Positions 22,766 through 37,333 of a stretch of 53,446 bases of DNA are shown one piece after another. The translations under genes and the position numbers were made by a program. A model generated the notes under the pieces. That model did no database searches. It was not told the origin of the DNA and saw only the letters and a list, made by a program, of their open reading frames with translations. The stretch covers positions 1-53,446 of the forward strand of contig MEMI01000047.1 of the NCBI GenBank assembly GCA_001767915.1, written 5' to 3'. Positions within the stretch are counted from its first letter, which is position 1. Each line of letters starts with the position of its first letter. Origin of the DNA: Alphaproteobacteria bacterium RIFCSPHIGHO2_02_FULL_46_13 (lineage in GTDB: Bacteria; Pseudomonadota; Alphaproteobacteria; Micavibrionales; Micavibrionaceae).

Positions 22766-23965
22766 TTACGCTGCCTTTTTCTGGGAAGAAAGTGCATCAA
22801 CGCCGGGCAGGGGCTTACCCTCCATCCATTCGAGGAAGGCTCCGCCCGCGCTTGATACATAGGTGAATTTATCACCGCATCCTGCGTGTTCTAACGCAGA
22901 CACCGTATCACCACCACCGGCAACAGACACCAAACCTTTTGCAGTCGCAGCCGCAACAGCTTGAGCCGCCGCAGTTGTGCCTTTGTCAAATGGTGTAACT
23001 TCGAACACGCCCAATGGACCGTTCCAGAGAACAGTTTTGCAACCCGCCAATTTCTCGGTCAGCATGGCAATGGTTTGAGGGCCAACGTCAACTGCTTCGC
23101 GGTCTGCTGGCATTGCCGCCGTCAGAACAATTTCATGCGGAGCGTTCGCGCCGAATTTATCAACGATCACGCGGTCAACGGGCAAAAGGATTTCACAGCC
23201 GGATGCTTTTGCGGCGGCTTGGATACGTTTTGCTTCGTCCACCATGTCGCGTTCGCACAAGGATTTACCAACCTCAACACCGTCGGCAAACAGGAAAGTG
23301 TTGGCCATGCCGCCACCCAAAAACAGGAAATCAACTTTTTTCACAAGGTTTTCGAGAACGGAAATTTTGGTCGAAATTTTTGACCCGCCAACAATTGCCA
23401 TCACCGGACGTTGCGGGTTTTCAAGGGCTGCGGTCAATGCGTTCAACTCTGCTTCCATCAGGAAACCTGCGCAAGACGGCAGGAAGTGGGCAAGGCCTTC
23501 GGTGGAGGCATGTGCGCGGTGTGCGGCAGAGAACGCATCGTTACAATAGATGTCACCAAGGGATGCGAGTTGTTTGGTAAAGCCAACATCATTTTTTTCT
23601 TCTTCTGCGTGGAAGCGAACATTTTCTAACAAGGTGACTTGACCGTTTTGAAGGGCAGCTTTTGCGGCTTCTGCCGGTGCGCCGATGCAGTCATCAGCAA
23701 AACCGACTTTCACGCCCCATGATTTTTCAAGGGCGGGCAACATGAATTTCAAAGAAAATTCAGGGGTTACACCTTTTGGACGACCAAAGTGGGAAATAAC
23801 CAAAGTCTTTGCGCCGTTTTTGGTCAGGAAATCAATGGTTGGGCTCAAACGGTCGATCCGTGTTGTGTCGGTGATATTGCCGCCTTCGGCAGGTACGTTC
23901 AAATCCGCGCGGAGCAGAACGGTTTTTCCTTTAACATCGATATTTTTAAGAGCCTGAAAATTCAT
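22766..23965 (-). CDS. pgk: Phosphoglycerate kinase
   Basis: Transfers phosphate from 1,3-bisphosphoglycerate to ADP in glycolysis, and reversibly in gluconeogenesis. With the ATG at 23965 (AGGGA upstream) it has 399 residues, normal for bacteria. Motifs in order: LLRADLNVP with the substrate Asp and Asn, SHFGRPKG, RFHAEEEKND, GGSKISTK, NGPLGVFE, and GGGDTVSAL near the C-terminus. The reading frame has no stop upstream and stays open to 24532, joining a quite different ORF (next entry); the ribosome site and homology start support 23965. The usual gap and fba neighbours are absent. Confidence 0.96.
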   Translation of the reverse strand: MNFQALKNIDVKGKTVLLRADLNVPAEGGNITDTTRIDRLSPTIDFLTKNGAKTLVISHFGRPKGVTPEFSLKFMLPALEKSWGVKVGFADDCIGAPAEAAKAALQNGQVTLLENVRFHAEEEKNDVGFTKQLASLGDIYCNDAFSAAHRAHASTEGLAHFLPSCAGFLMEAELNALTAALENPQRPVMAIVGGSKISTKISVLENLVKKVDFLFLGGGMANTFLFADGVEVGKSLCERDMVDEAKRIQAAAKASGCEILLPVDRVIVDKFGANAPHEIVLTAAMPADREAVDVGPQTIAMLTEKLAGCKTVLWNGPLGVFEVTPFDKGTTAAAQAVAAATAKGLVSVAGGGDTVSALEHAGCGDKFTYVSSAGGAFLEWMEGKPLPGVDALSSQKKAA

Positions 23966-24445
23966 GAGTATATCCCTATATATGTTGTCGTTGATGTACG
24001 GGGGTATTTTTAATGGCTTCGACAATATTGTGCAAGCTTCTTTGCAGTTTCGCGGATGATCAGATGAGCCGATGATCGGTTGATCGGATATTTTCTGATC
24101 ATCTGATAAACAGATCATCCGATCATCCGCCATAGGATCTATTAGTTCGTTCCCAGAAATTTGAAATTCGTTTTCGTCCTCAAAAAAGCCGTTTTTCTCC
24201 ATAAAAACAAGGGTTTGGATAAAATGGCGTTGCATGCGTAACCAGAGGCAGATTTGTTTGAATTCGATTCCGTAACAGCCGTGGGTGGTGGCGTTTTGGG
24301 AGGATGCGGCTTTGCCTTCCTCTGTTTTAGGGCCAGTGGATTTAAGCCAGATTTTACGGGCGCGGAGCTTCGCGGCCTGTTCGGCGCGTTGTGCATCTGT
24401 CCAAGATCTCTGCCCCCTGCGGCGGGGCTTTGGTACAGCTTCCAT
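23966..24445 (-). pseudogene. Possible remnant of a small STGP...EGK...N...HG protein, in frame with pgk
   Basis: From an ATG at 24445 the frame encodes an N-terminal basic stretch (PKPRRRGQRSW) and then KSTGPKTEEGKAASSQNATTHG, a motif I know from many short bacterial proteins of unknown role that read STGP.TPEGK..SS.NA.KHG. The region after about residue 100 corresponds to a palindromic GATCATC repeat and looks noncoding. There is no stop before pgk, so this is either an N-terminal extension, a separate gene that lost its end when the repeat arrived, or chance. No clear ribosome site precedes 24445. Confidence 0.4.
24052..24130. repeat. Palindromic GATCATC-rich repeat upstream of pgk
   Basis: The segment begins GCGGATGATC (24052-24061) and ends with its exact reverse complement GATCATCCGC (24121-24130). 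Inside, GATGATC, GATCATC and close variants recur at least six times in both orientations, so the RNA could fold into one long imperfect hairpin. It lies 87 bases upstream of the pgk start. Confidence 0.75.
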
Positions 24446-24560
24446 GAGGATATTGTAGGATATAAATCCTAAAATGTCAAGGGTTTTGGTGCGAAAAGTT
24501 ACGCAACACAACCACAAAGACACAAAGGGCACGAAGAATCACAAAGTTCTTCTTTTCGGC

Positions 24561-24589
24561 GCCATTGCGAGCGGAGTGAAGCAATCCAG
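24561..24589. repeat. Partial extragenic palindrome (attgcgag...gcaatccag)
   Basis: The sequence gccattgcgagcggagtg followed by aagcaatccag is one half of the palindromic repeat found complete at 40991-41085. It lies inside element A. Confidence 0.6.
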
Positions 24590-24713
24590 AAAGTTAGTTT
24601 TTTAACACAGAGGTCACAGATTTTTTTACTCTGTGGCTTTCTCTGTGATCTTTATGGAGTCTGTGGTGAAAGAAATTTTTAACGTAAGGCACGCAAGGGA
24701 ACGCATAGATATT

Positions 24714-24780
24714 CGTCATTCCGGCGAAAGCCGGAATCCCCTCTGATAAAAGTGAGATTGCGGCTTTCGCCGCAATGACG
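24714..24780. repeat. Inner palindromic pair of element A
   Basis: A 25-base arm (24714-24738) and an inverted arm (24756-24780) each form their own hairpin around GAAA or TTTC. The arms differ at two positions, and the two changes (C to G and G to C) pair with each other inside the arm, so each small hairpin stays perfect. Confidence 0.75.
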
Positions 24781-24937
24781 GGGGAAGAGGTAACTTTGTG
24801 ATTCTTCGTGTCCTTTGTGCCTTTGTGGTTGTGTGGTTTTCGGGCTTATCACAAAGGGTTGTTTCTTCTGAGCGGGACATATTTCTTGCAATTTAAATAA
24901 ATATTAGTTATGTTAATTCTCCTAAGGGGAGGTTTTC

Positions 24938-25297
24938 ATGAAATATGCTAAAAATCAGATGAAAAATGCCGAAATGATTTCAGAAGATCAGCCCTTCGCA
25001 AATGATCGGGAAAGCCGCAAGGTGATGATCGATCAATTATTTCCTCATGTATCGTTGCTTGAGAGATTTGTCTTATCAACTGTCTTAGCCCATGAACCTT
25101 TTGAAGCATTCAACGATGCAAACGATCCCCATTACTTTGACCTTAGCAAGAAGGGTAAAGAGGTTGCTCAATATGTTGAATATTTGAGGCAAAAAACAGA
25201 ATGGGAACAACGAAAACTAGACGAAAAGTCCAAGGGGCGCCGCGAACCCATTACAATTTATAGGCATAGAGATTCCGAAACAGTTGAGCCTGTCTAG
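24938..25297 (+). CDS. Small soluble protein of unknown function
   Basis: A 119-residue protein with an excellent ribosome site (GGGGAGG, seven bases before the ATG). It is mostly helical and charged, with a central hydrophobic stretch (LFPHVSLLERFVLSTVLA, about residues 33-50) too short and polar to be a membrane helix, and a basic Arg/Lys/Glu-rich C-terminal third (EWEQRKLDEKSKGRREP). No signal peptide. I do not recognise the family. It follows the repeat element and precedes another small unknown gene in the same direction; the two share a loose SR...DQL...FP..S pattern, too weak to call homology. Confidence 0.7.
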   Translation: MKYAKNQMKNAEMISEDQPFANDRESRKVMIDQLFPHVSLLERFVLSTVLAHEPFEAFNDANDPHYFDLSKKGKEVAQYVEYLRQKTEWEQRKLDEKSKGRREPITIYRHRDSETVEPV

Positions 25298-25385
25298 CTA
25301 TATAGGCGTGGATTGTGAGCGATTTTCTTGCAAAATTTCATCATAATGTTGTTATCATCATCATAAAAAATAGGGAGATAACATC

Positions 25386-25715
25386 GTGATGGCGACAACA
25401 GTCATTCATAAGCTGATAACACTCACCAACCGATTCATAGAGGCGGATGAATATCGCACATCCCGCGAAATTCGGGATCAGTTGGTTGCGGATGTTTTCC
25501 CTTTATTAAGCCCCACTATGAGACAAGAGATTTCAAACATTACCGAATATAACGATGTTTTAAAATCCGTTATGCGGGCATACAAAGATAAATCTTGCTA
25601 TGAGCAAGAGGCAATCGCCATGGTTATTATTCGAAGAATGCGCAGAGGGGAACGGGCGGTGCGTGATGATGAAGCGTTATTGGCTTATGCCACAGCCCCA
25701 GAGAGACGGCTTTAA
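25386..25715 (+). CDS. Small soluble protein of unknown function
   Basis: A protein of 109 residues from GTG at 25386 (eight bases after GGGAG) or 108 from the ATG at 25389. It is predicted helical, with LVADVFPLLSPTMRQEIS near the middle and a basic segment IIRRMRRGERAVRD near residue 82. There is no membrane segment or signal. No family is recognised. It lies 88 bases after the previous small gene, with an AT-rich gap that could hold its own promoter, and is convergent with pip. Confidence 0.68.
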   Translation: MMATTVIHKLITLTNRFIEADEYRTSREIRDQLVADVFPLLSPTMRQEISNITEYNDVLKSVMRAYKDKSCYEQEAIAMVIIRRMRRGERAVRDDEALLAYATAPERRL

Positions 25716-37072: not shown

Positions 37073-37259
37073 TTCACCACCAAGACACTAAGGACACTAA
37101 GACCACTAAGTTCTCCCTTATCGTCATTCCGGCGAAAGCCGGAATCTAGCTTTCTTAAATGTGATATAGGAAGAGAGATTCCGGCTTTCGCCGGAATGAC
37201 GGGGGACGGGGGGAGAAGAACTTTGTGATTCTTCGCGTCCTTTTTGGCTTTGTGGTGAA
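37073..37259. mobile_element. Nested inverted-repeat (MITE-like) element, copy B
   Basis: An outer left arm (37073-37115, ttcaccaccaagacactaag...) matches the reverse complement of 37214-37259 imperfectly. Inside lies a perfect 25-base inverted pair (37122-37146 and 37177-37201) of the same cgtcattccggcgaaagcc sequence as in copy A. The right outer arm shares ctttgtgattcttcg with copy A. No ORF in it looks coding. It fills most of the 330-base gap after rpsD. Confidence 0.7.
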
Positions 37260-37298
37260 GGGGGCTGTGTTTGGTGCGTGGGGCTTTCCCTCACCCAA

Positions 37299-37319
37299 CC
37301 CTCTCCCGAGGGGAGAGGG
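37299..37319. repeat. Palindromic hairpin (ccctctccc/gggagaggg)
   Basis: A perfect 9-bp stem with a three-base loop, preceded by tcaccc and followed by ggggtggg about ten bases further on, which extend the pairing. No T-run is seen at once, so it resembles an extragenic palindrome more than a plain terminator, though it could slow transcription from the minus-strand gene at 37334. Confidence 0.6.
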
Positions 37320-37333
37320 CTTAGAGGGGTGGG

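Follow-up and report, generated by a model that had tools for sequence, protein, structure and literature searches.

The window analysed here (the whole stretch of 53,446 nucleotides, bases 1-53446 of contig C47 of a 2.13-Mb genome in 56 contigs that is 97% complete, to be referred to as G000) contains a set of nested inverted repeats at 24507-24833. The locus raises the question of what such an element is made of and what could have spread it. The reading that we prefer, with a probability of roughly 0.55, is that the element is a nest of gene-less palindromes from two unrelated families that also have nuclease-bearing forms, spread by nuclease-triggered repair copying. A nest of REPs and palindromes is of a kind already described. 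The specific association of the two repeat families with one small nuclease family each, as suggested by sequence comparison, appears to be unreported in the open-access literature.

The outer palindrome is nearly perfect. The left arm and the inverted right arm are identical at 40 of 42 positions, with mismatches at 24520 and 24529, in agreement with a preliminary description of this DNA that had counted two differences. The best inverted 42-mer match in the real 700-nt region is 40, compared to 21-24 in 10 dinucleotide-block shuffles. With ungapped extension the arms lengthen to 64 nt (24506-24569 and 24771-24834) at 83% identity. As a single strand, the segment 24490-24850 folds with a z score of -14.7 as DNA and -14.4 as RNA, and none of 100 shuffles equals it. 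The interior consists of repeat modules only, with no enclosed nuclease gene or remnant. The further inverted pair that the preliminary description had placed at 24714-24780 is present as two hairpins (module D). Modules B and C, located between the left arm and this inner pair, are absent from that description. The order within the arms is B, C, a short piece E, and D:

24507-24548, forward strand: left outer arm, CACAAC followed by four CACAAAG-type 9-mers with spacing 8/9/10, convergent with the right arm.
24563-24590, forward strand: module B, a CGTC-REP-like hairpin (CATTGCGAGC...GAAGCAATCCA) with an altered CGTC tag.
24596-24684, forward strand: module C, CACAGAG-type inverted 9-mer arms.
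24714-24738, forward strand: left hairpin of module D, a CGTC-1 REP with an 8-bp stem and a GAAA loop (ATTCCGGC-GAAA-GCCGGAAT).
24756-24780, reverse strand: right hairpin of module D, a second CGTC-1 REP, of GCGGC type, that faces the left hairpin head-to-head (ATTGCGGC-TTTC-GCCGCAAT).
24792-24833, reverse strand: right outer arm, an inverted copy that matches the left arm at 32 of 34 positions across the 9-mer core.

Module D is made of two unlike CGTC-1 REPs, members of a known published family, that form a head-to-head heterodimer. According to a 2013 survey by Di Nocera et al. (PMC3733652), CGTC REPs have a CGTC (or TGTC/CCTC) tag at one end, and those of family 1 have a stem of 8 that starts with AT, a loop of 4, and a short tail that is mostly CCA. 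They are mostly arranged as head-to-head dimers, either homo- or heterodimers, with a spacer of 20-100 bp in most. Module D has CGTCATT... at both outer ends, 8-bp stems starting with AT, and 4-nt loops. Its two 25-nt units are head-to-head with the tags outside, and the 17 nt between them are slightly under the usual spacer. The tails are CCC and CTC, the published rule being 'most' CCA and not all. The same survey (PMC3733652) reports CGTC-1 REPs from Micavibrio aeruginosavorus and describes some REP dimers as nested in longer palindromes, in H. neapolitanus and A. variabilis.

The two hairpins of module D are both perfect over 8 bp, and they differ by one base pair, on both sides of the stem. 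The preliminary description had seen a compensatory change here. The perfect pairing of both hairpins stands, while a recent change does not. The combination of a GCGGC-type and a CTGGC-type hairpin, with four-base loops on both, is found again in G000 (C43:45690/45748) and at three loci each in the relatives G002 and G007. With this pairing recurrent at several loci, the supposed compensatory change is therefore a standing heterodimer. Stems vary with the pairing kept (CCGGC, CTGGC, GCGGC, CCAGC, and 9-bp ones) among loci of G000, G002, G007 and G011.

A genome-wide search for copies, as had been proposed in the preliminary description, places the element in dispersed repeat families. G000 has 54 matches at E ≤ 10 and 26 at E ≤ 0.001, four of the latter being the element against itself, and 15 of the 38 genomes searched (G000 included) have a match. 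Copies of module B are located on contigs C4, C40, C43, C38, C31, C50, C9, C49 and C30, and those of module C at C43:98218, C26:19409 and C4:2034. The matches form a mosaic, with P-A-B-C on C43, P-A-B-(C end)-E on C40, P-B-C-D on C4, P-A on C46, and A-D-A' in a second nested copy in the window:

37073-37259, forward strand: CACTAAG/CACAAAG arms around a CGTC-1 homodimer, downstream of an rpsD-like gene and beside a third repeat.

This third dispersed repeat (CCCTCACCC...GGGAGAGGG type, 37285-37324) has many copies in G000 and some in relatives.

At both window sites, some relatives keep the gene neighbors without the insert. In G007, about 98 bp separate the matched gene parts at the second site, compared to 367 in the window. 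At the first site, 19-92 bp are found between the matched parts from pgk to the PIP gene in G003, G005, G008 and G010; the empty site is confirmed by sequence in G005, G003 and G010, with boundaries that are not base-exact. In G001 and G004 this place is occupied by small ORFs, in G004 together with a B-like hairpin and other repeats. Since copies elsewhere and empty sites are both found, the outcome that the preliminary description had named as speaking against its proposal, a lack of both, is not what is seen. The target duplications that it had also suggested looking for do not abut the ends in any of 15 elements. In thirteen of these, any repeat near the ends is no longer than 5 nt, and the other two have a 6-nt repeat that is offset by 10-11 nt on one side, a length reached by 19 of 2000 random placements.

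The outer arms belong to a family of their own (to be referred to as CACxxAG arms), defined as runs of four CACAAAG-like units with spacing 8/9/10. There are 45 such runs in 290,745 fetched bases, which were picked because they matched and so are not a blind sample, and 1 in 870,762 bases of shuffled sequence. Wherever two runs lie less than 500 nt apart (13 pairs), they face inward. The window outer arms are likewise convergent, with one 9-mer type and one register. Convergent pairs recur in three related genomes, gene-less or with cargo. The shortest are hairpins of 82-89 bp (in G011 and G013), and others enclose REPs (twice in the window and at G011:C30), other repeats, or a gene. Overall the palindromes measure 82 to 471 bp, with interiors from 10 to about 400 nt and of differing content. 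A broader distribution, with CACAAAGRNCACAAAG as a phylum-wide motif, was considered and rejected: it occurs 29 times in 15 of 398 genomes, clustered in some of them, compared to 13 reversed-control matches.

MITEs, for example Correia/NEMIS and ERIC, have terminal inverted repeats, are intergenic and have no coding capacity, and the window element shares these features. It could be a classical MITE, derived from an insertion sequence by deletion and mobilized by a DDE transposase that recognizes the 42-bp terminal repeats, and the long terminal inverted repeats, the related copies elsewhere and the lineage-specific presence would all be expected of one. However, window-type palindromes differ from MITEs in having no abutting duplication in the 15 elements and no fixed size or conserved interior, and such arms enclose nuclease genes (see below). 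We regard a classical MITE as quite improbable. The preliminary description had supposed a helper transposase elsewhere in the genome. With no abutting duplications, with the range of interior lengths given above, and with no Y1_Tnp in G000, a classical one is unlikely; the nuclease genes between the same arms are likelier partners. The transposase search was for Y1 only, and it finds 0 matches to Y1_Tnp/RAYT (PF01797) in G000 at its completeness of 97%, while 6 of 38 genomes and 5 of 14 control genomes are positive. GTAG REPs with a RAYT were rejected as a candidate identity, as the repeats have no GTAG tag and G000 has no PF01797 match.

The mismatches in the arms bear on what keeps the palindromes intact. 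In 15 pairs, 6 are identical at 32-34 of 34 positions and the rest at 21-31. An arm matches its own partner with a modest excess over the others in its genome (29.6 vs 28.7, permutation p 0.02). In these pairs, 43 of 66 mismatches give G-U on neither strand, and there is no strand-specific G-U excess. Selection on folded RNA, one of the possibilities in the preliminary description, is not indicated for the arms, as these 43 mismatches break pairing on both strands. The same observation weighs against the idea that the hairpins are kept for an RNA or chromosome function (terminator, mRNA end protection, nucleoid binding), with mobility incidental. Stable folds would suit such a function, as would the location of REP groups: in a rough test based on ORFs, 27 of the 32 classifiable ones (of 37) have tandem or convergent gene neighbors. 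The window copy is between divergent genes, however, and Rfam finds no family at gathering score over 23900-25400, where the four sub-gathering matches are to eukaryotic or plasmid families. This explanation appears improbable.

Template switching is described in PMC8794818 as a process that perfects hairpins, and near-identical arms could have arisen by it alone, with no mobile unit needed. It leaves unexplained, however, the dispersed homologous arms in 8/9/10 register across several genera, as well as the presence and absence of the element between relatives. We consider template switching alone very improbable; it fails as a full account and remains a likely contributor.

The genes enclosed by CACxxAG arms point to a different kind of partner. 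At G011:C13:52859-53326 and G013:C22:106632-107102, the arms enclose ORFs that match PF13366, and the G011 protein also matches TIGR04256 (GxxExxY). We take the catalytic motif (VDF...ELK) of the GxxExxY ORF to be intact, as judged by eye. The window left arm is identical to the left arms of these gene-bearing palindromes at 30 of 34 (G011:C13) and 29 of 34 (G013:C22) positions. Convergent 9-mer runs are located on both flanks of the GxxExxY gene at 31 of 53 loci, and at 0 of 134 control ORFs of these loci; the other 22 genes are without detectable arms on both sides. The relatives contribute 14 of 25, a set that is not blind as the 9-mer unit pattern was widened after viewing their loci, and 12 of 25 under other flank limits. 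Thirty loci had been fetched for this set; 27 are left without fragments or broken genes (L283, L285 and L297), and 25 without those at edges (L282 and L291). The wider phylum contributes 17 of 28, with flanks unseen before scoring; these loci were drawn from 398 genomes, 63 of which have the gene, and 2 of 30 were dropped (L330 and L334).

The arm units vary among the GxxExxY loci (CACGAAG, CACTAAG, CACCAAG, CACAGAG, CGCAGAG) and are mostly alike on both flanks of one gene. CACAGAG-type arms, as in module C, bracket the genes at L271 (G011:C41), L272 (G027), L279 (G024) and L280 (G015). G000 has no match to PF13366, though the arms are present, and the outer palindrome would therefore be an orphan in this genome. 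G002 has four PF13366 matches, yet no strict arm run in 16 fetched stretches, which were chosen for REPs. The window outer palindrome is at most a gene-less member of the proposed CACxxAG/GxxExxY family.

A second nuclease family is found with the CGTC hairpins. A GIY-YIG ORF in G000 (C40:83450-83668) is enclosed by REPs at C40:83362 and C40:83696-83721, and the window segment 24714-24741 is identical at 28 of 28 positions to C40:83358-83385 beside it. Its catalytic motifs (YTG and ENP) are presumably intact, as judged by eye. This arrangement is repeated next to the same gene in G002 and G007, and the three genomes therefore represent one event. In G031, a hairpin related to module B (GTCATTGCGAGG...GCAATCCATGC) flanks a GIY-YIG gene.

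This arrangement is not limited to the relatives. Among 33 records of a plasmid collection with a GIY-YIG match, 14 named ones were chosen so as to avoid near duplicates. A strict script detects a CGTC hairpin on both flanks of the gene (about 97 aa) in 8 of the 14, and an inverted flank match of at least 30 is present in 10 of the 14. The corresponding figures for control genes in five of these records are 0 of 187 and 1 of 187. Because many of these control genes are in operons, a stricter control with gaps of at least 50 nt on each side was added, which gives 0 of 60 with CGTC hairpins on both flanks. The 187-gene control left out cut genes and one 141-nt gene, the latter being present in the list of the stricter control. 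Records with CGTC hairpins on both flanks include Sinorhizobium meliloti, Azospirillum lipoferum, Novosphingobium aromaticivorans and Neisseria, for all of which CGTC REPs are listed in the survey (PMC3733652). On Azospirillum lipoferum AZO_p3 (L364), the gene lies within CGTC REP pairs between sufB and sufC and splits the suf cluster.

The GIY-YIG genes in the relatives fall into two size classes. Thirty were fetched of a larger number of matches; 28 are left without L320 and L321, and 22 without six UvrC-sized ones that have no flank. CGTC hairpins are on both sides for 5 of 12 in the class of about 97 aa and 0 of 10 in that of about 80 aa, and the inverted flank match is at least 30 for 10 of 12 and 0 of 10, respectively. 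The five positives amount to about three independent cases, because one locus is common to G000 and G002, and those of G001 and G004 are nearly copies of each other. At least one flank fails the strict hairpin test for 7 of 12 in the relatives and 6 of 14 named records; the test misses some evident pairs (as in Aeromonas, where the second hairpin is tagged CGTT), and the strict count was kept. As background, tagged hairpins are found in 107 of 4000 random 200-nt pieces and, farther out at these loci, in 5 of 28 pieces.

The two associations are specific in a crossing test: CGTC hairpins bracket none of the 25 GxxExxY genes, and convergent 9-mer arms are seen at none of the 22 GIY-YIG genes. 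The two flanks of a gene also match each other better than they match the flanks of other genes, with means of 34.8 vs 18.5 for GxxExxY (53 loci) and 47.4 vs 18.5 for GIY-YIG (25 of 26 loci, L367 being left out as its frame runs off the stretch). Neither difference is reached in 5000 shuffles, in a comparison that includes orthologous loci. An inverted score of 40 is reached by 8 of 25 GxxExxY genes, 7 of 22 GIY-YIG genes and 6 of 550 random placements, some of which may overlap real elements. About four in ten of the tested nuclease genes are without arms on both sides, an observation in line with decay, but with weak coupling as well.

These data bear on whether the nucleases are agents or passengers. 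Some GIY-YIG enzymes are homing enzymes (I-TevI), and the nuclease genes could have homed into existing palindromes, with the loop as target, while the palindromes spread by other means. That many palindromes are gene-less is in line with such passengers, as is the situation in G002, which has many CGTC dimers in the fetched stretches and only three GIY-YIG matches, one of them UvrC-sized. Homing into random palindromes would not by itself explain, however, why the type of flank tracks the type of nuclease, and the match between both flanks of one gene also argues against it. We consider passenger genes rather unlikely.

Nuclease-triggered repair copying, the reading that we prefer, would proceed as follows. 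The nuclease would act in trans, recognizing hairpins of its own kind, and would nick or break DNA in or close to palindromes that are extruded or single-stranded. A palindrome would then be inserted or replaced by repair copying, either alone or together with its gene, and no target duplication would arise. Some palindromes may be kept near perfect by template switching from one arm to the other. Hairpin loops would tolerate insertions, and palindromes of one family could come to be nested in those of the other because the loops are dispensable. We infer from the associations that the nucleases are candidate partners that move the repeats. A more far-reaching version is offered tentatively: GIY-YIG enzymes for CGTC REPs and GxxExxY PD-(D/E)XK enzymes for CACxxAG palindromes may be the dedicated mobilizers of two superfamilies of bacterial palindromic repeats, the gene-bearing forms being hairpin-ended cassettes that spread by cut-and-repair instead of transposase or HUH chemistry, and REPs such as dRS3 and RPE-6 their gene-less derivatives.

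CGTC REPs 'apparently lack a dedicated transposase', in the words of the 2013 survey (PMC3733652), and the GIY-YIG link, if causal, would answer this explicit open question. Should the nuclease be the partner, a single small protein and a synthetic hairpin would suffice to test how the repeats spread. The CACxxAG palindromes would, if this is true, likewise gain a partner enzyme. The term 'GIY-YIG' is absent from PMC12306157 (RepRanger), and both 'GIY-YIG' and 'GxxExxY' are absent from the main text of PMC3733652. Open-access searches for either nuclease name with inverted repeats or REPs gave nothing pertinent among the matches listed, a weak result as most subscription journals lie outside their coverage. 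The REP strings were found for Neisseria only, and the arm strings only in unrelated papers, among the matches listed; we found no published description of the CACxxAG palindromes in the open-access literature, which is a weak indication of novelty.

Among known systems, the CGTC-1 REPs, including Neisseria dRS3 and Rickettsia RPE-6, are similar to module D in tag, stem, loop and dimers, as described in PMC3733652. In comparison, palindromes of the kind that encloses module D in the window are also found with no REPs inside, and relatives have ones with a nuclease gene. The GTAG REPs with RAYT (REPtrons) are alike in having short palindromes in gene-bearing and gene-less forms and a dedicated enzyme gene (HUH) beside the repeats, but differ from the window repeats in tag and enzyme family. 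Enterobacterial BIMEs and Neisseria NIMEs are also mosaic intergenic blocks of several short palindromic repeats; to our knowledge, CACxxAG arms are part of neither.

The CACAAAG arm pattern is also observed in viral contigs, where 28 stretches (L182-L209) have it over 25 bases, mostly without a good inverted partner. In one stretch (L183), a clear inverted pair is present at a distance of about 40 bases. No close relatives of the two nuclease proteins were found in viral contigs, in a search sensitive to close relatives only.

The element is located between a leftward small ORF and two rightward ORFs that have no significant family matches. The small ORF and its promoter-like site are outside the palindrome:

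24142-24445, reverse strand: small ORF of the STGPKTxxGK..NA..HG family.
24452-24480, reverse strand: promoter-like site of the small ORF, TTGACA-17-TACAAT.

This ORF was considered as a carrier gene and rejected, as neither hairpin type is located on both sides of the ORF in any of 14 copies. Four copies in G000 share modules upstream. In the C33 and C27 copies, the block common to the family stops at the -35 box or slightly past it.

The family is multi-copy, with 13 matches in G000 (on C33, C55, C27, C43, C38, C4, C29, C22, C39 and others). A TTGACA-17-TAyAAT-like promoter is common to several copies, and between its hexamers lies an AGGATwTAwATCCT near-palindrome. On the reverse strand of the window (22766-24460), the small ORF runs in frame, with no stop, into phosphoglycerate kinase (pgk), and in G017 (L066) it runs in frame into a 621-codon ORF that is pyruvate kinase-like by eye. 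A GAACGAACT(A/G)-like word, as seen by eye, recurs near the small ORFs of relatives, either coding for NELL/NELI or upstream of the start. At the far end of the small-ORF block there is a GATCATCTGAT-type inverted repeat, at 24057-24135 in the window and at C33:83-165.
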